From the NCBI RefSeq assembly GCF_900112645.1, contig NZ_FOMO01000003.1:248001-312000 (forward strand): 64,000 bases of DNA, in the 5' to 3' direction. Within the stretch, counting starts at the first letter, position 1. Each line of letters opens with the position of its first letter. Shown here piece by piece: positions 15,543-31,884 of this stretch. Position numbers and translations under genes: made by a program. The notes under the pieces are model-generated. The model had not been told where the DNA came from. It was given only the letters and a program-made list of their open reading frames with translations, and ran no database searches. The DNA is from Phytopseudomonas straminea (GTDB lineage: Bacteria > Pseudomonadota > Gammaproteobacteria > Pseudomonadales > Pseudomonadaceae).

Positions 15543-15625
15543 GGTTTACCTCGGGGGCGACGAATCAGGCGGGGCATTATTCACACATTGGCAGGCCGAG
15601 AAAACCATCGCGACTTGGGCAGCTT

Positions 15626-16414
15626 TCAGCGATAGCGCTGCAGGATGGCGGTGAACTCGCCGTTTTCCTGCATCTGGCGCATGGCGTCGAGCAGTGCCTG
15701 GGTCGGCACGTCGGGCGCATCGCGTACCAGGCAGGCCACTTCGTCTCGGGTCAGCTCATGGACTTCATGAAGCTGCTCGGCTTCGTCGCGACCACGATTG
15801 AACCACAGCAGCGCCAGTTCGTTGCTAATCGCATAATCGTAACGTCCGGCTGCCAGCTTGCGCAGAACCAGGCCCTGGGTGCGGGCATCGTCGCGATGCA
15901 ACCTGCCTCTTTCGAACAAGGCATTGAGGGTCGGGTAGTTGAAGCCTAGCACTGTGCCGATGGTTTGGCCGGGTAAACGCGTGGGGTCGACCGCCTGGTT
16001 GCTGCGGCTGACCAGCAGATCGCGCTGCGTCATGAAAGACACGCTCCAGGCATAGCCGGGATAGGTCTCGTTGAGCCAGTTCGGGTTGACGTAGCAGCGC
16101 ACGTCGATCTGCTGATCCTGCAACGCGCGGTGCACGCGCAAGCGTGGCAGCACCAGCAGCTCGGCCTCGCGATTGACCTTGCTGGCGAGTTGCACGGCAA
16201 GGTCACGCAGGATGCCGTCAACGGCTTTGCCGTCGCGGATCATCACCATGGGCATCACGCCGCTTTCGATGATCGAGAAGCGCAGCGGCGCATCAGTGGC
16301 CAGGCAGTAGCCGCTCGTCAGACCAAGTGCAAGGGCGGCTAGATAGCGCAATGCTGGGCGAACCGCGAGCGAGCAAACGGTGTCGCAAACAGGGATAGTC
16401 TGGAAATGGTTCAT
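15626..16414 (-). CDS. Periplasmic solute-binding protein, amino-acid type (family 3)
   Basis: This 262-residue protein has an N-terminal hydrophobic segment (YLAALALGLTSGYCLA) that fits a secretion signal, followed by a bacterial family-3 solute-binding fold (LRFSIIESGVMPMVMI, then DGILRDLAVQLASKV). Orphan proteins of this class may bind amino acids or serve as sensors. No ABC transporter genes accompany it. The start at ATG 16414 leaves an unusually long polar stretch before the hydrophobic core, so the true start may be further in. Confidence 0.75.
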   Translation of the reverse strand: MNHFQTIPVCDTVCSLAVRPALRYLAALALGLTSGYCLATDAPLRFSIIESGVMPMVMIRDGKAVDGILRDLAVQLASKVNREAELLVLPRLRVHRALQDQQIDVRCYVNPNWLNETYPGYAWSVSFMTQRDLLVSRSNQAVDPTRLPGQTIGTVLGFNYPTLNALFERGRLHRDDARTQGLVLRKLAAGRYDYAISNELALLWFNRGRDEAEQLHEVHELTRDEVACLVRDAPDVPTQALLDAMRQMQENGEFTAILQRYR

Positions 16415-16501
16415 CGGTCACCCGCGCATTGCTCAAGCGTCGCCCGTTGCAGAGCATGAAATTTTCAGATTACTGTTTTAACAGGCTTTTTATGTGGTTC
16501 G

Positions 16502-16538
16502 ATTGACTCAGCTTATTGGTTTGATGCTTTCAATCAAT
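16502..16538 (+). promoter_or_regulatory. Candidate OxyR-binding site of ahpC
   Basis: Four tetrads, ATTG, TTAT, ATGC and CAAT, are each separated by exactly seven bases. This matches the spacing of the OxyR consensus (ATAG-N7-CTAT-N7-ATAG-N7-CTAT), with 11 of 16 consensus bases. The site ends 68 bases before the ahpC start, directly upstream of where a -35 element would fall for the TACTAT -10 candidate at 16562-16567. Confidence 0.5.
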
Positions 16539-16561
16539 GGGCTCTTTGGTCCACATGGGGC

Positions 16562-16567
16562 TACTAT
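16562..16567 (+). promoter_or_regulatory. Candidate -10 element of ahpC
   Basis: TACTAT resembles TATAAT and sits 39 bases before the start codon. The matching -35 region is poor, as expected for an activator-dependent promoter, and abuts the candidate OxyR site. Confidence 0.35.
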
Positions 16568-16606
16568 CCCTCCTGTAAATTTTCTAACCCTCGAAGGAGT
16601 TCACAG

Positions 16607-17170
16607 ATGTCTTTGATTAACACTCAAGTCCAGCCGTTCAAGGTCAATGCCTTTCACAATGGCAAATTCATCGAAGTCACCGAGGAAAGCCTGAAAGGCA
16701 AGTGGTCCGTCCTGATCTTCATGCCGGCCGCCTTCACCTTCAACTGCCCGACCGAGATCGAAGACGCCGCCAACAACTACGAAGCCTTCCAGAAGGCTGG
16801 TGCCGAGGTCTACATCGTGACCACCGACACCCACTTCTCCCACAAGGTATGGCACGAAACCTCGCCGGCCGTTGGCAAAGCCAAGTTCCCGCTGATCGGC
16901 GACCCGACTCACCAGCTGACCAACGCTTTCGGCGTGCACATCGCTGAAGAAGGCCTGGCACTGCGCGGCACCTTCGTGATCAATCCGGAAGGCCAGATCA
17001 AGACCGTCGAAATCCACTCCAACGAGATCGCTCGTGACGTGGCCGAGACCCTGCGCAAACTGCAAGCCGCTCAGTACACCGCTGCCCACCCGGGCGAAGT
17101 GTGCCCAGCCAAGTGGAAAGAAGGCGCTCAGACTCTGGCTCCTTCCCTGGACCTGGTCGGCAAGATCTAA
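16607..17170 (+). CDS. ahpC: Alkyl hydroperoxide reductase subunit C (2-Cys peroxiredoxin)
   Basis: This 187-residue peroxiredoxin reduces hydrogen peroxide and organic hydroperoxides in the cytosol. The peroxidatic Cys47 lies in FTFNCPTEIED and the resolving Cys166 in HPGEVCPAKW, typical of AhpC1-type typical 2-Cys enzymes. The length is normal for the family. AAGGAG precedes the ATG. It is followed by ahpF, its reductase, after a hairpin. A candidate OxyR site upstream suggests peroxide induction. Confidence 0.98.
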   Translation: MSLINTQVQPFKVNAFHNGKFIEVTEESLKGKWSVLIFMPAAFTFNCPTEIEDAANNYEAFQKAGAEVYIVTTDTHFSHKVWHETSPAVGKAKFPLIGDPTHQLTNAFGVHIAEEGLALRGTFVINPEGQIKTVEIHSNEIARDVAETLRKLQAAQYTAAHPGEVCPAKWKEGAQTLAPSLDLVGKI

Positions 17171-17235
17171 AAACGACCCGGAAGCCTCGCTTCCTGATGG
17201 TCAGCCCCGGGGATGCACTCATCTCCGGTGGCCCG

Positions 17236-17269
17236 AACGCCCGGGCGTAACCCGCCCGGGCGTTTTATT
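17236..17269 (+). terminator. ahpC-ahpF intercistronic terminator/attenuator
   Basis: An 11-bp perfect GC-rich stem (17236-17246 and 17254-17264) is followed by TTATT. It lies between ahpC and ahpF and would end most transcripts after ahpC, leaving AhpC in excess over its reductase. Confidence 0.8.
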
Positions 17270-17298
17270 GCCCGAATTTCGTCATTGAGGACTCGTAT

Positions 17299-18852
17299 AT
17301 GTTGGACGCAACCCTTAAAACCCAGTTGAAGGCGTACCTGGAAAAGGTCAGCCAGCCGTTCGAGATCGTCGCGTCCCTCGATGACAGCGACAAGTCCCAG
17401 GAGCTCAAAGGCCTCTTGGACGATATCGTCAGCCTGACCGACAAGATCACCCTGAAAACCGATGGCAACGATGCCCGCAAGCCATCGTTCGCGCTGAATC
17501 GCCCGAATGGCAACATTAGCCTGCGTTTCGCCGGTTTGCCGATGGGCCACGAGTTCACCTCGCTGGTGCTGGCCCTGCTGCAAGTCGGTGGCCACCCGTC
17601 GAAGCTGGCGGCCGAGGTGATCGAGCAGATCCAGAATCTGGAAGGCGAATTCAACTTCGAGACCTACTTCTCGCTGTCCTGCCAGAACTGCCCGGATGTG
17701 GTCCAGGCGCTGAACCTGATGGCCGTGCTCAACCCGAACATCCGCCACGTCGCCATCGACGGCGCGCTGTTCCAGGATGAAGTCGAGTCCCGGCAGATCA
17801 TGTCGGTGCCGAGCATCTACCTCAACGGCGAACTGTTCGGCCAGGGCCGTATGGACGCCGAGCAGATTCTCGCCAAGATCGACACCGGCGCCTCGGCCCG
17901 TGATGCCGAGAAGCTGAACGCCAAGGAAGCCTTCGACGTGCTGGTCATTGGCGGCGGCCCGGCTGGCGCTGCAGCTGCCATTTACGCCGCCCGTAAGGGC
18001 ATCCGTACCGGCGTCGCCGCCGAGCGTTTCGGCGGCCAGGTGCTCGACACCATGGCCATCGAGAACTTCATCTCGGTCCAGGAAACCGAAGGCCCGAAAC
18101 TGGCCCGCGCCCTGGAAGAGCACGTCAAGCAGTACGAAGTGGACATCATGAACCTGCAGCGTGCCAGCGCGCTGATCCCGGCTTCCAGCGAAGGTGGCCT
18201 GCATGAAGTGAAGTTCGAGAGCGGTGCGAGCCTGAAAGCCAAGACCGTGATTCTCTCCACCGGCGCTCGCTGGAGAGAGATGAACGTGCCGGGCGAGAAG
18301 GAGTACCGCAACAAGGGTGTGGCCTACTGCCCGCACTGCGACGGCCCGCTGTTCAAAGGCAAGCGCGTGGCGGTGGTCGGCGGTGGCAACTCCGGCGTGG
18401 AAGCGGCCATCGACCTGGCCGGTATCGTCGCCGAGGTAACCCTGCTCGAGTACGACAGCAAGCTGCGCGCCGATGCCGTGCTGCAGAAGAAGCTCTACAG
18501 CCTGCCCAACGTCAAGGTGATCACCAGCGCCCTGACCAGTGAAGTGAAAGGCGACGGCCAGAAGGTCACCGGCCTGGTCTACAAGGATCGCAACTCCGAT
18601 GCGTTCATCCCGGTAGAGCTGGAAGGCATCTTCGTGCAGATCGGCCTGCTGCCCAACTCCGAGTGGCTCAAGGGCTCGGTCGAGCTGTCGGACCGTGGCG
18701 AGATCATCGTCGACGCCCGTGGCGAAACCTCGCTGCCCGGCATCTTCGCTGCTGGCGACGTGACCACCGTGCCGTATAAGCAGATCGTCATCGCGGTGGG
18801 CGAGGGCGCCAAGGCTTCGCTCAGTGCGTTCGATCATCTGATTCGTAGCTGA
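17299..18852 (+). CDS. ahpF: Alkyl hydroperoxide reductase subunit F
   Basis: This 517-residue flavoprotein disulphide reductase passes electrons from NADH to AhpC. The N-terminal tandem thioredoxin-like domain contains Cys128-x-x-Cys131 (SCQNC). The FAD-binding GGGPAG motif is near residue 218. The redox-active Cys344-x-x-Cys347 (YCPHCDG) and the pyridine-nucleotide motif GGGNSG near 361 follow. The length matches the family. It is separated from ahpC by 128 bases containing a hairpin, and is followed by its own terminator. Confidence 0.98.
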
Positions 18853-18868
18853 TCAACTGCTGTGTATG

Positions 18869-18896
18869 AAAAACGGGCCCAGTGGGCCCGTTTTTT
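18869..18896 (+). terminator. Terminator after ahpF
   Basis: A perfect stem ACGGGCCC / GGGCCCGT with a three-base loop is followed by six T residues, 17 bases after the ahpF stop. On the reverse strand the A-run in front also gives a T-run, so it can serve the converging small gene as well. Confidence 0.9.
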
Positions 18897-18916
18897 ATAC
18901 CTGTAGCAAACGCAGC

Positions 18917-19312
18917 TTAATCGGTCTCATCGTCACGGATCAGCACGTAACTGCTGCCGTTCTCATCGTCGAGGCGCTCGCAAACGAAGTACATCTCGAC
19001 CTTTCCCGCGTTCATGGCGGCCAGCAGGTCACCGGCCTGGGGCGTGAAAAAGGCCTTGGAGCCCGGCTTGGCTTCGCAGGCGATCAGCGCGGTGACGAAC
19101 AGTGCCGGATCGGTGCCGTCGAAGTAATCCTCGCGCTCGGCGGCGTCCCATTCCTGGGGCGGCTCGAAGGGGCCGGTGAACAGCACCTTGGCATCGCCCA
19201 GATCCTCTTCCTCGGCGTCCAGGTCGTCCTCGTCCGGGCGATAGACCGTGCAATCCAGGGCGTCGGCGGCGTCCAGCACGTGCTGGCGGGTTTGGTCATC
19301 GGCTAGGGACAC
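18917..19312 (-). CDS. Acidic conserved-looking hypothetical protein
   Basis: This is a 131-residue cytosolic protein with no signal peptide or membrane segment. It is strongly acidic, with a DEDDLDAEEEDLGD cluster in the first half. The GTG start at 19312 has GGAG six bases upstream; the longer open frame beyond it runs into the divergent carboxypeptidase gene. The C-terminal half (AFFTPQAGDLLAAMNAGKVE, MYFVCERLDDENG) looks like a small alpha/beta domain. I do not recognise the family. Confidence 0.7.
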   Translation of the reverse strand: MSLADDQTRQHVLDAADALDCTVYRPDEDDLDAEEEDLGDAKVLFTGPFEPPQEWDAAEREDYFDGTDPALFVTALIACEAKPGSKAFFTPQAGDLLAAMNAGKVEMYFVCERLDDENGSSYVLIRDDETD

Positions 19313-19449
19313 GGTAGCTCCGGCGGTCAATAAAGAGAGGCGCCAGTGTGCGACGCAGCGCCGCCTGCTGCAATCGTCGTCTGTGCATTTCCTCGGCGCC
19401 GCGAACCTGCGATGCTGCCGCCACCGTGAACACAGCAACGAGCAAAGCG

Positions 19450-20580
19450 ATGAAGATCAGTTCGGATTTCGACAGCGGCAATATCCTCGTGCAGGACGCC
19501 AGCGACCCGCACAAGGTGCTGCTGGCCATGCGCAAGGACCTCAACAGCGACCATTTCCAGTGGTTTCATTTCCACGTCGAGGGCCTGACTCCCGGCGCGC
19601 GTCACGACTTCAGCATCACCAATGCCGGGCAGTCGGCCTACAGTCATGCCTGGGCGGGCTACAACGCCGCTGCCTCCTACGATCAGCAGACCTGGTTCCG
19701 TGTACCGAGCCGCTTCGAGAAGGGCGCGCTGAGCTTCGGTCTGGAGCCCGAGCAGGCGCAGATCTGGTTCGCCTATTTCGAGCCCTACAGCCGCACACGA
19801 CATGCCGCGCTGATCGAGCAGGCGCTGGCCCTGCCAGGTGTCGAACTTCAATCCAGCGGGCGCAGCATCGAGGGCCGCGATATCGAATTGCTGCGCGTGC
19901 ACCGCCACGCGAGCGCGACTCGCAAGGTATGGATCATCGCCCAACAGCATCCGGGCGAGCACATGTCGGAATGGTTCATGGAGGGCGTCGTCAGGCGCCT
20001 TAGCGATTCCGGCGATGGTGAGCTGGACGCCTTGCTGCAGCAGGCCGATCTGTACTTGGTGCCGAACATGAATCCGGACGGCGCCTTCCGCGGCCATCTG
20101 CGCACCAATGCGGCGGGGCAGGACCTGAACCGCGCGTGGCAGTCGGCAAATGTGGAGCGCAGCCCGGAAGTGTTTTTCGTCCAGCAGGCGATGCGTGAGA
20201 TCGGCGTGGACCTGTTTCTGGATATCCACGGCGACGAGGAAATTCCCCACGTGTTCACCGCCGGTTGCGAAGGCAACCCGGGCTTCACGCCGCGACTGGA
20301 AGCGCTGGAAAACGAGTTTCGCCAGCGCCTGGTGGATAGTGGCGCCGAGTTCCAGACCCGCTTCGGCTACCCGCGCAGCGCACCGGGCCAGGCCAATCTG
20401 AACCTGGCCTGCAATGCAGTCGGACAGGAATTCGATTGCCTGTCGTTCACCCTGGAGATGCCCTTCAAGGACCATGACGATACGCCGAACCCAGCGACCG
20501 GTTGGAACGGCGAACGCTCGATGAAGCTGGCGGCCGACATGTTCGGCGTGATCGGCCAGATGGTCGACCGCCTGCGCTGA
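19450..20580 (+). CDS. M14-family zinc carboxypeptidase, cytosolic (CCP-like) type
   Basis: This 376-residue protein has a beta-sandwich N-terminal domain (about residues 1-120) followed by an M14 peptidase domain. Zinc ligands are in QQHPGEHMSEW (His, Glu) and DIHGDEE (His), and the general-base glutamate is in FTLEMPF. This two-domain arrangement matches bacterial relatives of cytosolic carboxypeptidases of the CCP6 type. No signal peptide is present, so it acts in the cytosol. The natural substrate is unknown. Its stop codon abuts that of the convergent hypothetical gene. Confidence 0.9.
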   Translation: MKISSDFDSGNILVQDASDPHKVLLAMRKDLNSDHFQWFHFHVEGLTPGARHDFSITNAGQSAYSHAWAGYNAAASYDQQTWFRVPSRFEKGALSFGLEPEQAQIWFAYFEPYSRTRHAALIEQALALPGVELQSSGRSIEGRDIELLRVHRHASATRKVWIIAQQHPGEHMSEWFMEGVVRRLSDSGDGELDALLQQADLYLVPNMNPDGAFRGHLRTNAAGQDLNRAWQSANVERSPEVFFVQQAMREIGVDLFLDIHGDEEIPHVFTAGCEGNPGFTPRLEALENEFRQRLVDSGAEFQTRFGYPRSAPGQANLNLACNAVGQEFDCLSFTLEMPFKDHDDTPNPATGWNGERSMKLAADMFGVIGQMVDRLR

Positions 20581-21108
20581 TCAGGCATGCTCGTGCAGGC
20601 TGCCGGGTTCATCCCGCGTGGCCTGCAACTCCTGAAGCATCTTCATCTTCTCGGCAATTTCGCGCTCTGCGGCGGCACGCTGCTCAGGCTGCATGTTCTC
20701 CAGGTCTTCCTCGGTGATGCCGACTTCCTTGAGGATTTTGTCGCGCATCTTCTCCGCCGGGGTCATGGCCATATAGGCCATGAACTCATCCCGGGCGCTC
20801 GGTTTGGGCGGGGCCTTTTGCTCATCGCTGGCCGCCAGGGCACCGGTTTCCTGCAGGTCGTCGCTCGCGTTATGCGCTGAGCTGTTGAGGGTCACGAGCA
20901 TCCGCGCGAATGCTTCGTCGTACGCCTGCTGGTGGGCGTTTGACTCATCGCTCTTGAATGCTGGCGCGACTCGTTCGTTTTCCCGCGGTTTACCGGGCTC
21001 GACGAGCAGTGCCGCATCGCTGCTTTTCTTGAAATCCAGTTCGTCGGCACGGGTGCGCTGCAGCGCTGTGCTCATGCCGTAGTGGTTGAGCGAACCAATG
21101 ATGCTCAT
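20581..21108 (-). CDS. Hypothetical protein with low-complexity middle and helical C-terminus
   Basis: This is a 175-residue soluble protein. The first 100 residues are polar and probably disordered. The C-terminal part (FMAYMAMTPAEKMRDKIL, ITEEDLENMQPEQRAAAE) is a charged helical region seen in many short proteobacterial proteins of unknown role. It starts at ATG 21108 with AGGGAGGCC-type sequence upstream. It has no membrane segments and no known catalytic motif. Confidence 0.75.
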   Translation of the reverse strand: MSIIGSLNHYGMSTALQRTRADELDFKKSSDAALLVEPGKPRENERVAPAFKSDESNAHQQAYDEAFARMLVTLNSSAHNASDDLQETGALAASDEQKAPPKPSARDEFMAYMAMTPAEKMRDKILKEVGITEEDLENMQPEQRAAAEREIAEKMKMLQELQATRDEPGSLHEHA

Positions 21109-21262
21109 GACAAGGCCTCCCTGATCTGAGCGTCTAACTTAGCAAGGCCTGTGCCAGGCCGTTTTATAGCGATAACGGACTGATATTCCTGCGTATTTTT
21201 TGTGAAGTGGCTGACCGGTCGGCAGGTTTTTGCCACTGTTGGCAAGGAGCTGCCGGCTTCTT

Positions 21263-23650
21263 TCAGGTGGGCGGATCGAACAGTCCGCGCTGGGTGAGGG
21301 CCGGCACGCGCGGCGCTGGCGTCGGTTGCGGTCGAGATGATTGACGAGCCAGAGGCGGCACCGGCATTGGCGTCTGCGGCACCCGGCTGCGTTGCACCTG
21401 CCACCAGCCCGGCAGCAGGGCACGCACCTCAGGCTGGGTGAAGCGGTCGTCCATCAGGTGCACCACGCCGCTGTCCTGGGGCGTGCGGATTACCCGCCCA
21501 GCGGCCTGCACGACCTTTTGCAGGCCGGGATACAGGTAGGTGTAGTCATAGCCGCTGCCGAACATCTCGGCCATACGCGCCTTGATCTGCTCGTTGATCG
21601 GGTTGATCTGCGGCAGCCCCAGGGTGGCGATGAAGGCGCCGATCAGCCGGTCTCCCGGCAGGTCGATGCCTTCACCGAATACGCCGCCAAGCACCGCGAA
21701 GCCGATCCCCTGGCCGCCGGGCTCGAAGCGCTGGAGAAACTGCTGGCGTTCGCCTTCATCCATCTGCCGCGCCTGCACCCAGCGGGTGAGCTGCGGATGC
21801 TCACGGTCGAACAGCTCCAGTACCTGCTGTAAATAGGCGTAGCTGCTGAAGAACGCCAGGTAGTTACCCGGGCGCTCGGCGAACTGCCGCGCCATCAGCG
21901 CCACGATGGGCGCCAGGGAGCGCTCGCGGTGCTGGTAGCGGGTCGACAGGTTGCTCACCGCCTGTACCTCGAGTTGCGCGGCCTGGAACGGTGATTCGAC
22001 ATTCACCCACGGCGTCGCCTCGGGCAGGCCGAGCAGGTCGGCGTAGTAGCGGGCCGGGCTCAGGGTGGCGGAAAACAATGTAGTGCTGTGGCTGTCCTCG
22101 AAGCGCGGCGCCAGGAAGGGCGCCGGCACCACGTTGCGCAGACACAGCAGCGAATGGCTGCGGCCACGCAGATCCGACTGGCGGCTGATATCGAACAGCG
22201 AATGGGGGCCGAAGGCTTCGGCCAGCCGGCAGAAGGCCATGGCATCGAGATAGAACTGCAGCAACTCGCCGTCGTTGCCGGTGGGCTGGTCGGTCAGGTG
22301 GTCGGTGAGCGCGCTGACCGCTTTCTGCAGGGATAGGAGCAGCAGGTCCGGTGGCTGCGGATAGGTCTGGTAATCAGCTTGCTGCTCCTTGTGCAGCTGC
22401 TTCCAGTGCCGGCTGATGCGCGTCAGTACCGCGCTCAGGCCCTTGGGTGCGTTGCTGCGCATGGCCTCGAAGCGTGCTTGGTCGAGTTCGGCGCTGTACA
22501 TGCGCCGGGCGCGTTCGATCAGGTTGTGGGCTTCGTCGACCAGTAGCGTCACCCGCCATTCGTTGATCAGCGTGAGGCTGTAGAGCAGGGCGCTGAGGTC
22601 GAAGTAGTAGTTGTAGTCGCACACCACAACGTCGGCCCAGCGTGTCAGCTCCTGGCTCAGATAGTAGGGGCAGACGTCATGCTGAAGGGCGATCTCGCGC
22701 ACCGCGGCCTGGTCCAGCCAGACGCGCTCCACTGCCATCTGGCGAGCTGCCGGCAAGCGGTCGTAGAAACCGCGGGCCAGCGGGCAGGACTCACCGTGAC
22801 AGGCCTTGTCCGGGTGTTCGCAGGCCTTGTCCCGCGCCACGTGCTCCAGCACCCGCAGCGGCAATGATAGCGGCAATGATTCGCCGCGCAGAATATCCAG
22901 GGCATGCAGCGCCAGTTGCCGGCCCGGCGTCTTGGCGGTCAGGAAAAACAAACGGTCGAGCTGCTTTTCCGGGAACGCCTTGAGCTGGGGGAACAGCGTG
23001 CCCAGGGTTTTGCCGATACCGGTAGTGGCCTGGGCCATCAGGCAGTGGCCGTCGCGCGCGGCGCGGTAAACAGATTCGGCCAGTTGCCGCTGGCCGAGAC
23101 GAAATTCGGCGTGGGGAAAGCGCAGCTTGCTCAGCGCGGCGTCACGGCTCAGGCGGTGTGCCTGCTCCTGCTCGGCCCAGGTGATGAAGCGCTGGCACAG
23201 CGTCTCGAAGAACGCCTGCAACTCCGCTGCCGTGCGGGTTTCGCGGAACACGCTCTCCTTCTGGGTCAGCACGTTGAAGTACACCACGGCGAGGTCGATC
23301 TGCTCGAGGTCGCGGCTCTGGCAGAGTAGCCAGCCGTACACCCGTGCCTGGGCCCAGTGCAGTTGCCGGTGGTTGTCGGGAATGCGGCTGATGTCGCCTC
23401 GGTGGGTTTTTATTTCCTCGAGCAGGTTGCTCAGCGGATCGAAGCCGTCGGCCCGGCCGCGCACCTGCAGCGAAGCGAACTCGCCGGCCAATGGCACTTC
23501 GGACTCGTAGTGCTCGCTGCGCCGAGCGACCACCGTGGCGTGGCCAGCCATTCCTTCCTGTGCAGTAGGCGAGGGTGTGAAGCGCAGGTCGAGGTCGCCG
23601 CATTTGGCGGTGAACTCACACAGGGCGCGCACTGCCACGCGGTAACTCAC
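21263..23650 (-). CDS. XPD/Rad3-type DNA helicase with N-terminal PD-(D/E)XK domain
   Basis: This 795-residue protein joins two activities. Residues 1-120 carry a nuclease-like core: D68 in GRADGFD, E79-x-K81 in EEIKT, then QARVYGWLL. A superfamily 2 Rad3/XPD/DinG helicase follows, with Walker A ATTGIGKT (208-215), four cysteines (277, 284, 289, 327) placed like the iron-sulphur cluster of XPD, and DEAH at 372-375. The C-terminal helicase lobe ends in QAAGRVIRT. The GTG at 23650 overlaps the upstream TGA as GTGA, so translation is probably coupled to the FAN1-like gene. Another GTG at 23662 is possible. The C-terminal 40 residues are proline-rich. Confidence 0.92.
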   Translation of the reverse strand: MSYRVAVRALCEFTAKCGDLDLRFTPSPTAQEGMAGHATVVARRSEHYESEVPLAGEFASLQVRGRADGFDPLSNLLEEIKTHRGDISRIPDNHRQLHWAQARVYGWLLCQSRDLEQIDLAVVYFNVLTQKESVFRETRTAAELQAFFETLCQRFITWAEQEQAHRLSRDAALSKLRFPHAEFRLGQRQLAESVYRAARDGHCLMAQATTGIGKTLGTLFPQLKAFPEKQLDRLFFLTAKTPGRQLALHALDILRGESLPLSLPLRVLEHVARDKACEHPDKACHGESCPLARGFYDRLPAARQMAVERVWLDQAAVREIALQHDVCPYYLSQELTRWADVVVCDYNYYFDLSALLYSLTLINEWRVTLLVDEAHNLIERARRMYSAELDQARFEAMRSNAPKGLSAVLTRISRHWKQLHKEQQADYQTYPQPPDLLLLSLQKAVSALTDHLTDQPTGNDGELLQFYLDAMAFCRLAEAFGPHSLFDISRQSDLRGRSHSLLCLRNVVPAPFLAPRFEDSHSTTLFSATLSPARYYADLLGLPEATPWVNVESPFQAAQLEVQAVSNLSTRYQHRERSLAPIVALMARQFAERPGNYLAFFSSYAYLQQVLELFDREHPQLTRWVQARQMDEGERQQFLQRFEPGGQGIGFAVLGGVFGEGIDLPGDRLIGAFIATLGLPQINPINEQIKARMAEMFGSGYDYTYLYPGLQKVVQAAGRVIRTPQDSGVVHLMDDRFTQPEVRALLPGWWQVQRSRVPQTPMPVPPLARQSSRPQPTPAPRVPALTQRGLFDPPT

Positions 23651-25287
23651 GCGTCGGCCCACTGCACGTAGCAGACGTCCACCGGCATGTCATGCTCGGC
23701 ACAGAACGCCAGCCAGCGACGCTGATTGTCCTGCAGGCGATCACCCGGGCCTTTCACCTCGATCATCCGGTAGCGCTTCTCTTCGGGCCAGAACTGGATC
23801 AGATCCGGCATGCCCGAGCGGTTGGCCTGGATATCGCCGAGCAGGCGGCGAAACCACGCCTGCAGATGCGCCGCCGGTAGGCAGTCCAGTGCCTGTTCGA
23901 GCAACGTTTCGTTGAGCACGCCCCAGTGCACGAAGGGCGACTGGATGCCGAACTTGTCGCGGTAGGTTTGGCGAATGCTGTCGCGGTAGCGCTCGTCCTC
24001 GAGCTGGGCGAGGCATTCGGCGAACAGCATGCGGCGCCGCGCATAGAACTCGGCGGTGAGCAGATCCGCCGGGCCGTGCTGAAACGGATGAAAGAACGCA
24101 CCGGGAATCGCAGCGAAGATCGCCGGCCAGCAGAGCAGGCCGAACAGGCTGCAGATCAGCGTGTTCTCGACGTAGTGCACCGGCGCCTCGTTACGTTGCA
24201 GGTGCAACTGCACCATCTGCTCGACCGCCAGCAGCGGCGCACGCGGCAGTTGCAGATCCAGGCGTGCCGGCGCCTGCGCCTTGCTGCGCTTCTGTGTCGG
24301 TAGGCCAAGGTGGCGGCTCAGGCGCACCAGTGCCCGTTCGGCCAGTTGCAGCTCGCCGTCGCTGAGCGGCTCGGCCACCGCCTGGCTGGCCAGCTCGAAG
24401 GCCTCGCGGTGCTGCAGGGTGCGCTCCAGCACGCGGATACGCCTTTGCCGCGCCGCGCCATAACCGCTGCTGGCGTAAACCTGCAGGGCCAGATCGAATT
24501 CTGCGCAGCGTTCCAGATGCTGGCCGATGCGAAACAGCAGCTTGGCGCGGCGCTCGGCGATGTAGGGGTTGTCGTAGCGACGCGCATCGATGCAGGCAAG
24601 CAGTTCATCGCTGACTTCACCGGCTTCGAAAACTTCGCGGCAGCGCTGCAGGTGCAGGTAGTCATCGACGTCCTCGCGGCAGCGTAGGGCCCGCGAGTCA
24701 GCCGGGAAGTCGACCCGCTCGTAACGGAAGATGCCCAGGTCGGCGAGCACGAATTCCGACCACTCCTGGCGCAGGTTGCCAAAGAACATCAGCCGCAGGC
24801 GCTCGCTCAAATCGTCGATGGTCAGGCTGTAGAGCATGTCATCGAGTGCCGGGCACCAGGCGGCGAATGCCTGGCTGGTCTCGAAGTGCTCGGCGAGCTG
24901 CAGAGCCAGATCGTCCTTACGGGCGCGCCGGTCGCTGAGCTGGGCGGCGAAGCTGGCGACGATCTCGTCCTTGCGCAGCAGGGCCAGCAGTTCATCGAGG
25001 CTCAGCGCGGCATCATCGACTACCCAGCCAGTGGCGATCAGCGCCGCAGCAGCCTGACGGCAGCAACCGATCTCCTCGTAATTGAGCTTGCTGGCGCGAA
25101 AGTGCACACCCTTGCGCATGATCATGCGTACCAGCAGGGCCTGTGCCGACCAGTCGAGGGCATCGAAGACCTGTAGAAAAGCCTGTTCGCGGGTGTCGAG
25201 CAGGTCGGCATGGCGATCGCCGATCCAGGCCAGGGCCTTGCGAAAGTTGTGCAGGTAATAAAAACGAGGATCAAGGGTTGAAGACAT
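23647..25287 (-). CDS. FAN1-like VRR-NUC structure-specific nuclease
   Basis: This 546-residue protein ends with a VRR-NUC nuclease domain: D495 in GMPDLIQFW, then E510-V-K512 and a GPGDRLQDNQRRWL helix. The N-terminal part is helical, and the middle contains repeat-like helices as in FAN1 (Fanconi-associated nuclease 1). Bacterial FAN1 cleaves flap and cross-linked DNA. The coupled downstream helicase supports a joint role in interstrand-crosslink or branched-DNA repair (inference). The start at ATG 25287 begins MSSTLDPRFYYLHNFR. Confidence 0.92.
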   Translation of the reverse strand: MSSTLDPRFYYLHNFRKALAWIGDRHADLLDTREQAFLQVFDALDWSAQALLVRMIMRKGVHFRASKLNYEEIGCCRQAAAALIATGWVVDDAALSLDELLALLRKDEIVASFAAQLSDRRARKDDLALQLAEHFETSQAFAAWCPALDDMLYSLTIDDLSERLRLMFFGNLRQEWSEFVLADLGIFRYERVDFPADSRALRCREDVDDYLHLQRCREVFEAGEVSDELLACIDARRYDNPYIAERRAKLLFRIGQHLERCAEFDLALQVYASSGYGAARQRRIRVLERTLQHREAFELASQAVAEPLSDGELQLAERALVRLSRHLGLPTQKRSKAQAPARLDLQLPRAPLLAVEQMVQLHLQRNEAPVHYVENTLICSLFGLLCWPAIFAAIPGAFFHPFQHGPADLLTAEFYARRRMLFAECLAQLEDERYRDSIRQTYRDKFGIQSPFVHWGVLNETLLEQALDCLPAAHLQAWFRRLLGDIQANRSGMPDLIQFWPEEKRYRMIEVKGPGDRLQDNQRRWLAFCAEHDMPVDVCYVQWADA

Positions 25288-25437
25288 GGGGGCGGCGGGG
25301 GTACTGTTTTTTTATACAGATATCAGGCCGCCCGTCATCTGGCAATCGCTACGGGATGGGCGGGTGGTACAACGCATTGTCATTCGGTAGCGGTCGCGGA
25401 CTACACTGCACCTCCATCGCCGTCTGGAACGGGCCCC

Positions 25438-26598
25438 ATGAATAGCCAGTTTGCGCCTTTTTCACCGGGTACCCTGACCGAGCGCCATTACGAGATGCTC
25501 GTGCAGGCGGTCGTCGACTACGCCATCTTCATGCTCGACCCGGCAGGTGTCGTGGTGTCATGGAACGCTGGCGCGGCTCGCATCAAGGGCTATGACGCCA
25601 ACGAGGCCATCGGTCAGCACCTGTCATTGTTCTACACCGATGAAGACCGCCAGGCAGGCAAGCCCGATTACTTGCTCGAACTGGCGCGCTGCGAAGGCCG
25701 CGCCCAAGACGAGGGCTGGCGAGTGCGCAAGGACGGCACGCGTTTCTGGGCGCTGGTGGTCATCGATGCGATCCGCAACGAGCTGGGCGAGGTCATCGGC
25801 CTGGCCAAGATCACCCGCAACATCACCGACCGCCGCGAAGCCGAAGGCCGTTACGAAGCGCTGCGCGCCCAGCTGTTCCAGGCTCAGAAGCTCGAAGCCC
25901 TCGGACAGCTGAGCGGCGGCATGGCCCACGACTTCAATAACCTGCTGACCATCATCCTCAGCGCCGCCAAGCTGGCCAGCCGTACCGACGATCCCGAACG
26001 CCTGGCCAGTCTGCTGGACAGCATACAGACGGCGGGTCAGCGGGGGGCGCAGATGACCCGCAATCTGCTGACCTTCGCTCGCTGCGAGCCCAAGGCCACT
26101 CGGCAGGTCGATCTCGACGAGTTACTGGATGCTGCGGCCACCTTCATCGACCAGGCACTGCCCCGAACCATGACGTTGCGCATGCAGGTCGATGAGGGAC
26201 TGCATCCCGTACAGCTCGACCCCAGCGAGCTGGAAATGGCCCTGCTCAATCTGGTGCTCAATGCACGCGATGCCATGGGTGTAGTGGGCGAAGTGCAGGT
26301 TCAGGCTTGCAACCGGCAGTTGGCCGGCGAGGCGGGCGGGCTGCATGGTGAATTCGTGGAAATCATCGTGGCTGATCAAGGCTGCGGGATCGATCCGTCG
26401 ATTCGTTCGCGTTTGTTCGAGCCATTTTTCACCACCAAGGATGTCGGCAAGGGAACCGGATTAGGCCTGAGTCAGGTCTATGGTTTTGCCCGTCAGGCAA
26501 AAGGCGGGGTGCAGATCGACAGCGCCGCTGGCTGGGGAACTCTGATCAGGCTTTACCTGCCGGCGATCGTCGGCGGTCTGGCAGATGAACCGTTATGA
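25438..26598 (+). CDS. PAS-domain sensor histidine kinase
   Basis: This is a 386-residue soluble kinase. A PAS domain occupies about residues 20-130 (FMLDPAGVVVSWNAGAARI). The phosphoacceptor His164 lies in SGGMAHDFNNLL, followed by an ATP-binding domain with the N box (ALLNLVLNARDAM), G1 (DQGCGI) and GKGTGLGLSQV. It has no receiver domain and no membrane segment, so it senses an internal signal, perhaps through a PAS cofactor. The KaiC-like gene starts 44 bases downstream, and a single-domain response regulator follows that. These are likely partners. Confidence 0.93.
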   Translation: MNSQFAPFSPGTLTERHYEMLVQAVVDYAIFMLDPAGVVVSWNAGAARIKGYDANEAIGQHLSLFYTDEDRQAGKPDYLLELARCEGRAQDEGWRVRKDGTRFWALVVIDAIRNELGEVIGLAKITRNITDRREAEGRYEALRAQLFQAQKLEALGQLSGGMAHDFNNLLTIILSAAKLASRTDDPERLASLLDSIQTAGQRGAQMTRNLLTFARCEPKATRQVDLDELLDAAATFIDQALPRTMTLRMQVDEGLHPVQLDPSELEMALLNLVLNARDAMGVVGEVQVQACNRQLAGEAGGLHGEFVEIIVADQGCGIDPSIRSRLFEPFFTTKDVGKGTGLGLSQVYGFARQAKGGVQIDSAAGWGTLIRLYLPAIVGGLADEPL

Positions 26599-26642
26599 CA
26601 TGTTAGTATCGCCAATCATTTTTTCAGCTAGCCCTGCGGCGC

Positions 26643-28148
26643 TTGGGACACGTACTTGAGTACCCAGGCCAGACAGGCGCACATTCGACTGAGGCTCGCC
26701 AGATCTTGGAACAGCTACAACGCCTGCAAAGTGGGATCGAGGGTCTTGACGCTCTATTGAAGGGCGGTCTGGTGGCCGGTGCATCCTATATCGTTCAGGG
26801 GCGCCCCGGCTCTGGCAAGACGATTCTCGCCAACCAGGTCGCGTTCAACCACGTACGCGACGGGGGCCGGGTTCTGGTCGCCACCCTGCTGGCCGAGTCC
26901 CATGAAAGGCTCTTTCAGTTCCTTTCCACGATGAGCTTTTTCGACCCCAGCAAGGTTGGCGCCGAGATTCAGTTTGTCAGCGCGTTCGACACCCTGGAAA
27001 ACGAAGGGCTCGATGAAGTCGTCAAGCTGCTGCGCCGCGAGATCAGTCGCCAGAAGGCCACCTTGTTGATCGTCGACGGCCTGCTCAACGCCCGTTCCAA
27101 GGCCGAGAACCAGATCGACACCAAGAAATTCATCTCCGAGCTGCAGGGCCATGCGGCCTTCGCCGGCTGCACGGTGCTGTTCCTGACCAGCTCGCGGCTG
27201 GACGATGGCAGCCCTGAACACACCATGGTCGATGGCGTGATCGAGATGGGGGAGGAGCTGTTCGGTGCTCGCTCGGTGCGGCGCATCCACCTGCGCAAGA
27301 CCCGTGGCAGCGGCGCCTTGTCCGGCCTGCACGAGTGCGAGATCACCGACGACGGGTTGGTGATCCACCCGCGCCTGGAGAGTCTGTACAGCCACCCGAG
27401 TCAGCCGGACAGCGAAACCCTGGGGCTGGTATCCAGTGGCATCCCGAGCCTGGACGGGCTGATCGGCGGCGGACTGTCGGCTTCGTCGGTAACCCTGATC
27501 ATGGGGCCTGCGGGCGTCGGAAAGACCACCCTGGGGCTCAACTTCCTGGCGCAATCCACCGTCGAGGAGCCAGGTCTGCATTTTGGTTTCTATGAAACCC
27601 CGCAACGCCTGCGCCTCAAGTCCAAGGCCCTTGGTATCGACCTGGAGGCGTTGGAAGCACAAGGCGCGCTGCACATCATGTGGCAGCCGACCACCGAAGG
27701 GTTGCTCGACGGTCTAGGCGCGCGAGTCATCAAGGCGGTCCGCGAGAAGGGCATCAAGCGCCTGCATATCGACAGCCTCGGCGGCATGGCCCGCGTCGCC
27801 ACTGGCAGCACTCGGCTGATCGAGTTCTTCAGCGCGCTGATGAGCCAGCTGCGTGCCATGGGTGTGACGGTGTTCGCCACCTGGGAAATGCGCGACCTGT
27901 TCGCGGCCGAGATCAACGCCCCGGCGCCGGAGCTGTCGAGCATCGTCGACAATCTGATTCTCATGCGTTTCGTGGAAAAAGACGCTGAACTAAAGCGCCT
28001 TCTTTCCATACTTAAGATGAGGGACAGCCGTTACGATCCCTCGCTCCTGGAAGTGGTCATCAGTGATCATGGTATTGAACTCAGCAAGGCCTTCAGACAT
28101 GCGGCTGGTGCGCTGTCAGGCAATGCCGTCCCTGCGCAGGACGCCTGA
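26643..28148 (+). CDS. KaiC-like double-domain ATPase
   Basis: This protein of up to 501 residues has two KaiC/RecA-like domains. Domain 1 has Walker A GRPGSGKT (53-60), Walker B near LLIVDG (141-146) and the ATPase glutamate segment LAESHERL. Domain 2 has GPAGVGKT (288-295), HIDSLGG and FYETPQRL. Ser432-Ser433 (PELSSIVDNL) align by eye with the Ser431-Thr432 autophosphorylation pair of cyanobacterial KaiC. No kaiA or kaiB is in the window. The first in-frame start is a TTG at 26643 with no good ribosome binding site; a TTG at 26703 is an alternative. It is flanked by kinases and a response regulator, so a signalling role is likely. Confidence 0.88.
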   Translation: MGHVLEYPGQTGAHSTEARQILEQLQRLQSGIEGLDALLKGGLVAGASYIVQGRPGSGKTILANQVAFNHVRDGGRVLVATLLAESHERLFQFLSTMSFFDPSKVGAEIQFVSAFDTLENEGLDEVVKLLRREISRQKATLLIVDGLLNARSKAENQIDTKKFISELQGHAAFAGCTVLFLTSSRLDDGSPEHTMVDGVIEMGEELFGARSVRRIHLRKTRGSGALSGLHECEITDDGLVIHPRLESLYSHPSQPDSETLGLVSSGIPSLDGLIGGGLSASSVTLIMGPAGVGKTTLGLNFLAQSTVEEPGLHFGFYETPQRLRLKSKALGIDLEALEAQGALHIMWQPTTEGLLDGLGARVIKAVREKGIKRLHIDSLGGMARVATGSTRLIEFFSALMSQLRAMGVTVFATWEMRDLFAAEINAPAPELSSIVDNLILMRFVEKDAELKRLLSILKMRDSRYDPSLLEVVISDHGIELSKAFRHAAGALSGNAVPAQDA

Positions 28149-28178
28149 GCCATGTGTGCCTGACCGAGCCGATAAACT

Positions 28179-28541
28179 ATGACAACCATCCTGATAGTCG
28201 ACGACGAATACCTGATTGCGGATATTCTCGGCTATGCCATGGAAGACGAAGGCTACATGGTTGTGAAGGCCAGCAATGGCCGGCGCGGCCTCGAGGTGCT
28301 CGATCGTGAGCGCCCTGAGCTGGTGATCACCGACTTCATGATGCCGGTGATGGATGGTCTCGAATTTGCCCGGGCCATCCGTGCCAGGCCTGGATCGGCA
28401 GAGCTGCCGATCATCCTCATGAGTGGCGCCCAGGGCAGCGTCGGGCGCGCCAGCCCTGAATTGTTCGCCGCGGTGTTCGACAAGCCGTTTGATATCAATC
28501 TGGTCATCGCCAAGGTCAAGGAACTGATTGGCCCGAGCTGA
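28179..28541 (+). CDS. Single-domain response regulator
   Basis: This is a 120-residue stand-alone receiver domain with no output domain. The acidic pocket is in VDDE near the N-terminus, the phosphoacceptor is Asp52 in TDFMMP, and the conserved lysine is in FDKPF. It starts 30 bases after the KaiC-like gene, so the two are probably cotranscribed. It most likely receives phosphate from the flanking kinases and acts by protein contact or as a phosphate shuttle. Confidence 0.93.
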   Translation: MTTILIVDDEYLIADILGYAMEDEGYMVVKASNGRRGLEVLDRERPELVITDFMMPVMDGLEFARAIRARPGSAELPIILMSGAQGSVGRASPELFAAVFDKPFDINLVIAKVKELIGPS

Positions 28542-28835
28542 TCAGCCGCTATCTCCTCCTCATTAAGCACAAGCGGAACGCCTCGTTGGCGTGGCGGTCG
28601 AACGCTGCGCAAGCTGGGGTGAAGGTCGATGTGCCCCAGCACAGTGAAGTGTCCAGGGCGCGAGAATCATGGATGAGGATATAAGGCGGACATCGGTTGG
28701 TGCCATGCTTGGTGTGGTGATGTCGTGCGCCGAAGGCGGTTGCAGCGAATGTCTAACTGCCCACGCAGATGGCTTCACAGTGCCTGCCCGAGCACTGCGC
28801 TGTCGCGCCTGCATCGACGCGTGAGGAATTCATTC
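28542..28835. other. Gene-free spacer before the hybrid kinase
   Basis: About 294 bases separate the response regulator from the hybrid kinase. The kinase frame stays open upstream to about 28725, but that part is arginine-rich and unlike a protein domain. The spacer probably holds a separate promoter for the kinase gene. I see no terminator with a T-run. Confidence 0.4.
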
Positions 28836-30323
28836 ATGCGCATCCTCATCCGTAGTGATCAAGCCAAGCAACTCCTGCCGCTGCTCGCGCCGCTTGGCGC
28901 AAATTGCCTTGCTTGCGCGAACCTTTCCGAGATGTTTGATGCCCTTGATGAGGGCGTCGATGCTGTGCTGCTAGCTGAGCAACTGCTCGACAGCCATGCC
29001 GAAGCCCTGGCCAGGTTCGCGGATTCGAGAATTCCCGTGGTGCTGCTGGGCTCGGTTGATGGCACGCTCCAGGCAGCGCAGCGTATGCAGGGCGTCAGTC
29101 TGATAGTGGAGCAGCCATTCACCTCCCGCGGGCTGTGCAGCGCTTTGCAGGCCTTGAAAGAGGGTAGCCAGCAGTTGCTGTCACCTGACGAGGAACTGGC
29201 TTTGCAACAGAGCCAGCGCATGGACGCCGTCGAGTCGGTGATCGACGGTGTTGCCCATGATTTCAATAACATGCTTACCGGCATCATTGGTGCGCTGGAT
29301 ATCATGAAGCGCCATGTCGGCGCGGGGCGTTTCGATGACCTGTCGCGCTTTATCGAGGCTGCGAGCATCTCTGCCGATCGCGCCAGCGCGCTGACCCAGC
29401 GTCTGCTTACGCTTTCCCATCGCCAGCCGCTGGAGGCACAGCCCATTGAGGTGAGCCCCCTGATGGCCTCGCTCGAGGCGCTGATCCGGCGCTCTATCAG
29501 CGATGGTATCGCGCTGCAGGGCGACTACCAGCATGGCAGCGTGCGGGTGCTGGCCGATGCTCGGCAGCTGGAGAGCGCGATACTCAACCTCGCCGTCAAT
29601 GCCCGGGACGCCATGCCGGGCGGTGGGGAGATCGGCCTGCATACGTCGCTCGTCGAGCTGCAGCAGGAGAGCCTTGCGGCTTTGCCAGACCTGCAGCCTG
29701 GTCGTTATCTGTTGATTGCACTGTCGGACACCGGCACCGGCATGAGCAACGAAACCCTGGAGCGGGTTTTCGATCCGTTCTTCACCACCAAATTGGTCGG
29801 CCAGGGCAGTGGTCTTGGTCTGTCCATGGTGCACGGCTTCGTTCGGCAGAGTGGCGGACAGGTAACCATTCACAGCGAGCCGCAGGTGGGCACCACGGTG
29901 CGTCTTTACTTGCCAGTGGTCGAAGATGCGGCCCAGGTACGGCAGCCTGCGAGCGAGGCGCCGGCTGGGCAATCGCGCATCCTGCTGGTGGAGAGTGATT
30001 CGTCGGTCTGTCTGCTGGTCGGCGAAGTGGCGGCCGATTGCGGTCATCAACTGGTCAATGCCGCCGATCCGCAGGCGGCTCTCGAGCTGCTCGGGCGCGA
30101 GTCTTTCGACCTGCTGATCAGCGATGTCAGCTTGCCCGGCATGAGCGGTGTGCAATTGGCCGAGAAGGCGCTGGCCGAACGTCCGGACTTGGCCGTACTA
30201 GTGGTCGCCGCAGCTGCCGATGTAGGGCAACTGGCGGCAGCGCCGGCGCTGCGCAGTATCGCCAAACCGTTCTCAAAACGTGAGCTGAGCGAAACCTTAG
30301 TCGCTTTGCTATCCGTGCGCTGA
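28836..30323 (+). CDS. Hybrid sensor histidine kinase with degenerate N-terminal receiver
   Basis: This 495-residue soluble protein has a degenerate receiver-like domain at about residues 1-108, in which the usual KPF is replaced by QPF and no phosphoacceptor aspartate is evident. The dimerisation domain has His141 in [11 protein letters not shown], followed by an ATPase domain ([24 protein letters not shown]). A C-terminal receiver (about 380-495) has Asp430 in [11 protein letters not shown] and Lys477 in AKPF. The ATG at 28836 has GAGG upstream and starts MRILIRSD. Its position suggests it works with the KaiC-like ATPase and response regulator. Confidence 0.9.
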
Positions 30324-30774
30324 CGCCTAAGGGAGTGCTGAAAAAGGTGGGGTTCAGGCGTTGAGAGGGCCTGCAAGCCCGCCTGTAAGCGCGGCCTTAC
30401 GGACTTTCGGCATCTTTTTTCACGCAAAGCATGTGGATGTGGAATCAAAGCGTTGCCGCGTAGTCCTAAAACCTGACAACGATTAGCGGCACCCCAGAGC
30501 GCCGCCTCCAACACCCTCGAAACACCGGGTTGGATGTCGAACCGTTGCAGCACCTGATGCCGATTTTGCACTGCCCAACATGAGCAGGCAGATGCCAGGC
30601 GGGTGATTGGCAAAGGGAAGGGATGCTGCAGCCTGCATTGCCTCGACGAGCAGTGGCTGGTGTGCAGGTGCCTGTGGTTCGGCTTAGAACTGCCAGCGTC
30701 CATCAATCGAGTGTCGCCGTACCGTTACGGCGATTGTGGGGGAGATATTAACCATTGAACGGTAATCACAGCCT
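30324..30774. other. Gene-free spacer between signalling and polysaccharide loci
   Basis: About 450 bases show no credible gene on either strand. The right end must hold the promoter and leader of the forward polysaccharide trio; a weak AT-rich stretch lies near 30745-30770. I found no clear terminator for the kinase gene. Confidence 0.45.
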
Positions 30775-31884
30775 ATGAAAATGTTGAAAGAATCCCTCAA
30801 GAAGGTTTTGCCGCGGGACAGTATCGATAACCTCAAGGCATTGCAGAAGCGGCTTGCCATGGGCTGGATCCGCGCGCTGTCGCGCTCGGCCATGTTGCGC
30901 CGTTTCCATTACTCGTTCTTCTCCTCGGCTTTCGACCGTGAAGCCTACGCGGTGGTGGTCGGCCACTTGCAGCATGAGCAGAACCTCTCCGGTGCCGAGC
31001 CAGTGAACTACTTCCTGCGCCGCGCCGTGCACCGCATCGAGAAGGGCCTGATCATGCAGCCGCGGCGCCAGGTGTTCGCCCTGGACTACATCAACGACAC
31101 CGTCGACAGCTACATCGCCTCGCTCAAGGGCAATGTGGATCGCGACGAAGTCAGTTGGGCCCATGACGTACTCGCCGAATACTTTGCCGTAACGGGCGAT
31201 CACCCGGTGCTCAACCGTGCCCGCGAGAAGTTCGCCCGCCTGGAGCGCCCCAGCGGCTCGCCGGAAACCCTGCGCAACCCGGATGCCGAGCGCGTGCCGT
31301 TCGCCGCCGACGTGAGCACGCCGAGCGTGGACTTCACCGCCATGCGTCAGCTGGCTATGAAGCGCCGTTCGGTGCGCTGGTATCAGCAGGACCGCCCGGT
31401 GCCGCGCGAGGTGATCGACAAGGCCGTAGAAGTCGCCGTGCAGTCGCCGAGCGCCTGTAACCGCCAGCCGTACCGTTTCGTGGTGTTCGATGATCCGGCC
31501 TCCGTGGCCCAGGCTTCGCGCCTGCCAATGGGCGTGGCCGGTTTCGATCACAACTTCCCGGCTATCGTCGCCGTGGTCGGTCGCTTGCGCGCCTATCCCC
31601 ATGTGCGTGACCGTCACGTGATCTACATCGACGGCGCCCTGGCGGCGATGTCCTTCATGTTCGCGCTGGAAACCCAGGGTGTGTCGTCGTGCTCGATCAA
31701 CTGGCCGGACATCCCCGAGCGTGAAGAGGCGGCGGCCAAGCTGCTCAAGCTCGACCCGGATGAGCGCATCGTGATGTTCATTTCCCTGGGCTACGCCGCC
31801 GACACTGGCCTGGTGCCGTACTCGCAGAAACTCTCGCTGGAGGAAGCCCGCAGCTACATGCGCCTGGAGTCGCCTGCTCGATGA
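30775..31884 (+). CDS. Nitroreductase-family protein with N-terminal extension, polysaccharide locus
   Basis: This is a 369-residue protein. The C-terminal half (from about residue 190) is an FMN-dependent nitroreductase fold: RRSVRWYQQDRPVP, then SPSACNRQPYRFVVF and the C-terminal VMFISLGYA. The N-terminal 190 residues are a separate helical domain I do not recognise. It overlaps the flippase gene by ATGA, so they are cotranslated. The setting argues for a role in polysaccharide modification or redox chemistry on a precursor, but the substrate is unknown. It has no signal peptide. Confidence 0.85.
   Translation: MKMLKESLKKVLPRDSIDNLKALQKRLAMGWIRALSRSAMLRRFHYSFFSSAFDREAYAVVVGHLQHEQNLSGAEPVNYFLRRAVHRIEKGLIMQPRRQVFALDYINDTVDSYIASLKGNVDRDEVSWAHDVLAEYFAVTGDHPVLNRAREKFARLERPSGSPETLRNPDAERVPFAADVSTPSVDFTAMRQLAMKRRSVRWYQQDRPVPREVIDKAVEVAVQSPSACNRQPYRFVVFDDPASVAQASRLPMGVAGFDHNFPAIVAVVGRLRAYPHVRDRHVIYIDGALAAMSFMFALETQGVSSCSINWPDIPEREEAAAKLLKLDPDERIVMFISLGYAADTGLVPYSQKLSLEEARSYMRLESPAR

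Follow-up and report, generated by a model that had tools for sequence, protein, structure and literature searches.

A 64,000-nucleotide stretch of the Phytopseudomonas straminea genome (contig NZ_FOMO01000003.1, positions 248,001 to 312,000; hereafter the window) carries two overlapping genes on its minus strand. By sequence, the first is a FAN1 nuclease gene and the second a gene for an EndoDinG-type helicase-nuclease, and the pair is preceded by a conserved LexA-type box. This box suggests that FAN1 and EndoDinG are switched on together upon DNA damage. A joint role of the two proteins in crosslink or fork repair is the best-supported reading, and the locus is probably a two-gene SOS operon, induced by DNA damage, whose products incise and clear blocked forks or crosslinks. 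We place the operon in DNA-damage repair because of the LexA-type box and because, in the consulted part of a transcriptional study (PMC12796719), the Pseudomonas aeruginosa genes PA1865 and PA1866 are induced by UV-C. What is new is the SOS-type regulation of the FAN1-EndoDinG pair, both protein families being already known; we found no description of the conserved pairing and its LexA-type control in the open-access literature, a body of work that leaves most subscription papers outside its scope.

Bacterial FAN1 has served in structural work as a model of the human nuclease of crosslink repair, and to our knowledge its role in the bacterial cell has been little studied. A conserved partner gene together with a LexA-type switch would allow a direct test of this role; the two also place the newly named EndoDinG class in a physiological context.

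The product of the first gene, called FAN1-like in a preliminary description of this DNA, is a member of the FAN1 family both by its domains and by its whole-length structure match. Pfam matches to FAN1_HTH (1e-36), FANC_SAP (3e-15) and VRR_NUC (1e-40) follow one another in this order, and the P. aeruginosa FAN1 structures 4r89/5y7g match over the whole length (E 3e-184 to 4e-184). By analogy, we take the catalytic set of the VRR-NUC domain to be E374, D495, E510 and K512. In 29 aligned rows, which include the window and contain some loci twice, E374, D495 and K512 are invariant (29/29 each) and E510 is found in 27/29. The same domains and catalytic set characterize P. aeruginosa FAN1 (PA1865; PDB 4r89, 4r8a, 5y7g), an enzyme that cleaves 5' flaps (PMC4103454). 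For this protein, neither a helicase partner nor a LexA site is named in the portions of PMC4103454 and PMC12796719 that were consulted. One sampled genome (G747) encodes a FAN1 that is 93% identical to the P. aeruginosa protein over 206 amino acids; the same helicase adjoins it, the likely ATG of the EndoDinG frame overlaps the FAN1 end, and the upstream region contains an exact box.

For the second gene, the earlier proposal of an XPD-like helicase was borne out by Pfam (Helicase_C_2, DEAD_2) and by structure comparison. A single solved protein, 9kqh, whose title reads Finegoldia magna DinG in complex with ssDNA and ADPNP, matches it nearly end to end (E 3e-121; residues 7-755 in the frame from the GTG at 23662). 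The open reading frame listing places the start at this upstream GTG; we took the start to be at 23650 because close relatives start at that codon, and helicase residues are numbered from there. An AlphaFold2 model of the whole helicase (pLDDT 89.4) superposes on 9kqh with Z 34.5 and 4.1 A over 720 residues. The helicase motors and the Fe-S region are common to XPD, FANCJ and the bacterial DinG and YoaA proteins, whereas XPD and DinG structures align only from about residue 160 on, which leaves the N-terminal Cas4-like domain as an extra part. The four cysteines noted earlier as XPD-like were located at C277, C284, C289 and C327, and all four are present in 37/41 aligned sequences. From what is known of XPD and DinG, they form a putative [4Fe-4S] site.

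Modelled alone, residues 1-178 (pLDDT 92.8) resemble, besides 9kqh (Z 20.1), SSO0001 (13.6), which we take to be a Cas4 protein, MGME1 (12.5), the Cas4 of a Cas4/Cas1/Cas2 complex (12.1) and EXO5 (10.9); across Cas4, MGME1, EXO5 and AddAB/RecB nuclease domains the fold likeness spans Z 7.7-13.6. Because the domain model matches Cas4, MGME1 and EXO5 structures (Z 10.9-13.6), the N-terminal motif set is more than chance. The preliminary description had placed this motif at D68, E79, K81 and Q101, positions that are correct when counted from the GTG at 23650, and H37, E51 and Y105 complete a RecB/Cas4-type set alongside them. All seven residues are identical in 41/41 aligned sequences, i.e., the window protein and 40 relatives from Pseudomonadota, Bacillota, Verrucomicrobiota, a spirochaete, Desulfobacterota, SAR324, Aminicenantes and a Heimdallarchaeota bin, and the same held for an initial set of 14 sequences with the Legionella plasmid proteins among them. 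A locus whose frame contains stops (L123) was excluded from one alignment (A2), and the helicase of L037, interrupted in its record, was left unmended. Pfam PDDEXK_1 was matched in 13/32 aligned sequences, and the window's own N-terminal domain has no Pfam match at E 0.01. In the EndoDinG proteins of two Lactobacillaceae (L063, L064), all four Fe-S cysteines are lost and the nuclease motif is complete.

DinG-like proteins with such an N-terminal domain were named EndoDinG in a 2025 review (Cheng; PMC11981726, consulted in part), which reports endonuclease activity of the Bdellovibrio representative as unpublished data. The window helicase has the architecture and catalytic set described there, its membership in the subgroup resting on these features. 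Its model reproduces the six strands, the histidine in the second helix, the glutamate at the start of the second strand, and the glutamate and lysine on the fourth; D68, contrary to the review's wording, is closer to the third strand's end than to its beginning. Cas4, EXO5, AddA and Dna2 bind an Fe-S cluster at another place according to the same text, whereas the cysteines of the window protein sit in the helicase. The review's EndoDinG section mentions neither a FAN1 link nor SOS control of the subgroup. Since the activity of the class rests on these unpublished data and that of the window protein is predicted, the N-terminal domain could in principle be degenerate, a nuclease fold retained as a DNA-binding platform. 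We consider this very improbable given the invariance of the seven motif residues in all 41 sequences, even in those that have lost the Fe-S cysteines.

The regulatory part of the argument begins with the box itself. CTGT-N8-ACAG occurs once in the window (0.78 expected), at 25304-25319, and a tighter pattern, CTGTATNNNNNAMCAG, likewise occurs there once against 0.01 expected. In the 4.99-Mb genome, this tighter pattern is found four times, upstream of recN, dinB, a yebG-like gene and FAN1, whereas its reversed control gives no match. The match at FAN1 is by construction, because the pattern was written after the FAN1 boxes had been seen; the other three sites are not. The identities of recN and dinB lie well above an NCBIfam cut-off, and the yebG-like gene scores 39.5 bits, below its cut-off of 161.

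The box is conserved with FAN1 in the genus. CTGT-N8-ACAG with at most one mismatch is found in 68/69 FAN1 upstream regions, 16 of them exact, compared with 16% (adjacent FAN1) and 15% (separated FAN1) of shuffled regions at one mismatch and less than 0.5% for exact sites, these and the later shuffles of upstream regions having moved two-base blocks rather than being strict dinucleotide shuffles. In 66/68 cases, the box lies 8-53 bp from the aligned start. The single genus genome without a box (L113 and G303, also L148, counted as one genome) is not part of the sample outside the family considered below. Where FAN1 has moved away from the helicase in genus genomes, its box is kept in 11/11, and in a sister genus the FAN1 box is present in 3/3 genomes. 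Outside the family, FAN1 genes from genomes without EndoDinG have a box in 3/9, one of these distant and GC-rich. Among Pseudomonadota EndoDinG genes without an adjacent FAN1, there is an exact box at L037 (Cupriavidus), a one-mismatch site at L105 and L140, and none at L138, L139 and L008.

Published expression data point in the same direction. UV-C raises PA1865 and PA1866 in P. aeruginosa, among 18 genes outside three known damage regulons, and PA1865, the FAN1 gene, is also induced by ciprofloxacin (consulted part of PMC12796719). From its number and from G747, we infer that PA1866 is the EndoDinG gene. A LexA-type switch would offer a reason for this UV-C response of two genes outside the known regulons (PMC12796719). 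In the searchable text of a 2026 review of the SOS response in P. aeruginosa (PMC13114513), a term search finds neither FAN1 nor PA1865.

The two genes are also closely linked. The GTGA stop-start overlap that had been described for them was confirmed at 23650-23647, and this or a similar overlap is found in many relatives, not in all. Of 119 genus genomes, 114 carry the helicase and 115 carry FAN1; four have neither, one has FAN1 only (G255), and none has the helicase only. Adjacency, defined here as same contig and strand with no more than 160 bp between the FAN1 end and the helicase start, was found in the same gene order in 102/113 testable two-gene genomes, the remaining one of the 114 (G304) being untestable with its genes on two short contigs. 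Gaps between adjacent genes range from -1 to 149 (median 8), and in three adjacent loci (G262, G280, G308) one gene matches in pieces.

Beyond the genus, a phylum sample of 249 genomes contains EndoDinG in 22 and FAN1 in 28, with both in 19 and adjacent in 19/19. The class sample comprised 229 genomes, with FAN1 in 9, EndoDinG-type matches in 7 and both in 6, of which 5 have them adjacent; adjacency in these two samples, and the class EndoDinG count, were read manually from coordinates, and the genus, class and phylum samples overlap in some genomes. A scan of named organisms gave FAN1 directly upstream of EndoDinG in 21/22 Pseudomonadota loci and 0/58 others among the best 80 of 573 EndoDinG loci, some of which have little upstream sequence and one of which has a broken FAN1 frame (L097). 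Two pairs of entries (L119/G232 and L048/G051) are apparently the same contig each. FAN1_HTH was absent from 14/14 named control genomes. In a quickly built tree of 96 EndoDinG proteins, many rows of which differ in composition, adjacency to FAN1 as a label can be explained with 5 changes, against 23.2 for shuffled labels, so that the pairing appears to be of old standing in Pseudomonadota and to have been lost in places. The idea that one operon supplies two nucleases and a helicase is supported at the level of prediction: both nucleases are predicted, the motifs hold up and are strictly conserved, and the pairing appears old.

A possible sequence of events starts with DNA damage, which would lead to RecA-driven cleavage of LexA and derepress the operon, the gene overlap allowing both proteins to be made from a single message. 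FAN1 would cut a 5' flap, or the strand beside an interstrand crosslink or stalled fork. XPD/DinG helicases translocate 5' to 3', and EndoDinG would load onto the exposed single strand, move in this direction, peel off the incised strand and use its Cas4/EXO5-like domain to cut that strand. Translesion polymerases, DinB for example, or recombination could then close the resulting gap. A stable complex of FAN1 and EndoDinG would not be required.

Several results weigh against a jointly acting operon under damage control. By the sequences sampled, the pairing is not obligate: FAN1 occurs without EndoDinG in 9/28 FAN1 genomes of the phylum sample, and a whole-genome search found no FAN1 in 44/45 EndoDinG genomes outside Pseudomonadota, genomes whose completeness is not stated. 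The core activity of EndoDinG hence needs no FAN1. Outside the family, the box precedes 10/15 paired FAN1 genes (Burkholderia, Herbaspirillum, Microbulbifer and others), and the unlinked FAN1 genes of two-gene genomes (L141, L142, L144) have a one-mismatch site in 1/3. The separated helicases of the genus show a weaker upstream match, with one mismatch and a GC-rich core in 8/11 and none exact (shuffles 16%). A simple promoter scan detected no sigma-70-like site near the FAN1 and helicase genes. Finally, in the consulted part of PMC12796719, PA1865 is repressed by hydrogen peroxide, and PA1865 and PA1866 are counted outside the known LexA regulon.

The whole-genome search covered 49 genomes, i.e., 50 chosen from the 80 loci minus L074; it recovered 3/3 positive controls and located a FAN1 elsewhere in the genome of Marinobacterium L105. 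The sole genome with FAN1 among the 45 belongs to SAR324, which we take to be placed outside Pseudomonadota, and its FAN1 was not seen beside EndoDinG. The solved protein 9kqh comes from a firmicute, and none of the sampled EndoDinG genomes of that phylum has FAN1. With EndoDinG so often alone, FAN1 in turn found without it, and the two genes apart in 11 genus genomes, the possible 'self-contained machine' of the preliminary description is not supported in that form. The same absences and separations would fit two co-regulated and functionally separate SOS genes, with an operon that saves a promoter, FAN1 acting on crosslinks and flaps, and EndoDinG alone acting on R-loops, G-quadruplexes and single-stranded gaps. 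Some EndoDinG genes may, moreover, have damage control of their own: of 63 EndoDinG loci without an adjacent FAN1, 13, all from Bacillota, have an upstream site within two mismatches of CGAAC-N4-GTTCG, compared with 4.0 expected from shuffles. Even so, we regard separate roles as rather unlikely, as helicase-only genomes are lacking in the genus (0/119), adjacency is long-lived across families, and FAN1 is fused to another strand-degrading domain in 5/9 genomes without EndoDinG.

As a separate observation, GAAC-N4-GTTC sites lie 39-74 bp upstream of the EndoDinG match at L039, L041, L100, L111 and L114 (Listeria, Paenibacillaceae); this pattern presumably resembles the LexA box known from Bacillus. 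Outside Pseudomonadota, the matches upstream of EndoDinG are suggestive only, and the idea of a clear SOS box there was set aside.

The fusions just mentioned and other partners suggest a recurring association between an incision nuclease and a strand-clearing activity. In five of the nine FAN1 genomes without EndoDinG in the phylum sample (L128, L129, L131-L133), a DnaQ-type exonuclease domain (E 3e-31 to 7e-38) lies C-terminal to VRR-NUC in the same frame; in L128, the N-terminal part of FAN1 is in a separate frame 1.3 kb away. On Legionella plasmids (L043, L044, L229; 3/3 found), the EndoDinG gene and a GIY-YIG nuclease gene overlap by 8 bp within a DNA-repair island that has umuD and Y-family polymerase genes nearby, and some of these islands also carry a dinB, Ku, LigD, UdgX or SOS-associated peptidase gene. 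One of two GIY-YIG proteins scanned has a weak DnaQ-like match below the Pfam cut-off. In L052 (Verrucomicrobia), too, a GIY-YIG gene has its end at the called EndoDinG start or slightly within that gene, and a uracil-DNA glycosylase gene is close to EndoDinG in L104 (Furfurilactobacillus); overall, the close neighbours of EndoDinG without an adjacent FAN1 (ten scanned) are mixed. Tentatively, and with less confidence than we place in the operon itself, the locus might represent, in bacteria, an SOS-inducible equivalent of the step in eukaryotic crosslink repair that incises and clears. A strand-clearing activity would be genetically wired to a structure-specific incision nuclease, with interchangeable modules (FAN1 and EndoDinG in Pseudomonadota, the FAN1-DnaQ fusion, GIY-YIG and EndoDinG on Legionella plasmids), and throughout Pseudomonas the operon would be a LexA target that has so far been missed.

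A replacement helicase beside FAN1, where EndoDinG is absent or elsewhere, was also sought and rejected: seven large neighbours scanned (L125-L127, L129, L130, L133, L142) were unrelated, comprising a fatty acid isomerase twice, a penicillin amidase, an M16 peptidase, a GGDEF protein, a PAS kinase protein and one protein without a match. What turned up in place of such a helicase was the DnaQ fusion.

The likeness of the second gene to defence-associated helicases raises one further explanation, an anti-mobile-element role in which the pair destroys invading or recombining DNA, as type IV CRISPR DinG helicases and defence Cas4/RecB-like nucleases do. The PADLOC model typeIV_DinG indeed matches the helicase part (E 9e-133). 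In the genus, however, the pair is distributed like the core genome, and its box is common to recN, dinB and the yebG-like gene. No array-like repeats were found at 15000-32000 and no tandem arrays in the window, PADLOC has no match for FAN1, and no cas family was found among the four neighbours and ten further window genes scanned. We therefore consider such a role highly unlikely. The narrower assignment of the helicase as a type IV CRISPR DinG (CasDinG/Csf4) was rejected, with no array and no cas genes nearby in the stretches and genes scanned and a TIGR03117 score of 26 bits against a cut-off of 400.

Table 1. Features of the FAN1-EndoDinG locus, in window coordinates.
Feature	Position	Strand	Description	Basis
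FAN1 gene	23647..25287	minus	ATG start, 546 aa; FAN1_HTH, SAP-like and VRR-NUC domains	Pfam and PDB matches
EndoDinG-type helicase-nuclease gene	21263..23650	minus	GTG start, 795 aa; XPD/DinG superfamily 2 helicase with N-terminal PD-(D/E)XK domain	
GTGA stop-start overlap of FAN1 and helicase genes	23647..23650	minus		
N-terminal RecB/Cas4-like nuclease domain, residues 1-178	23117..23650	minus	H37, E51, D68, E79, K81, Q101, Y105	
Cys-rich stretch of the helicase, putative [4Fe-4S] site	22670..22822	minus	C277, C284, C289, C327	
LexA-type (SOS) box CTGTATAAAAAAACAG	25304..25319	minus	16 bp upstream of the FAN1 ATG	

An Rfam search of the window gave no match. Divergent from FAN1, a gene for a PAS sensor histidine kinase is followed by one for a two-domain KaiC-like ATPase (window 25438-28148, plus strand), and window 19348-20580, also on the plus strand, encodes an M14 carboxypeptidase whose N-terminal domain is the one found in cytosolic carboxypeptidases.

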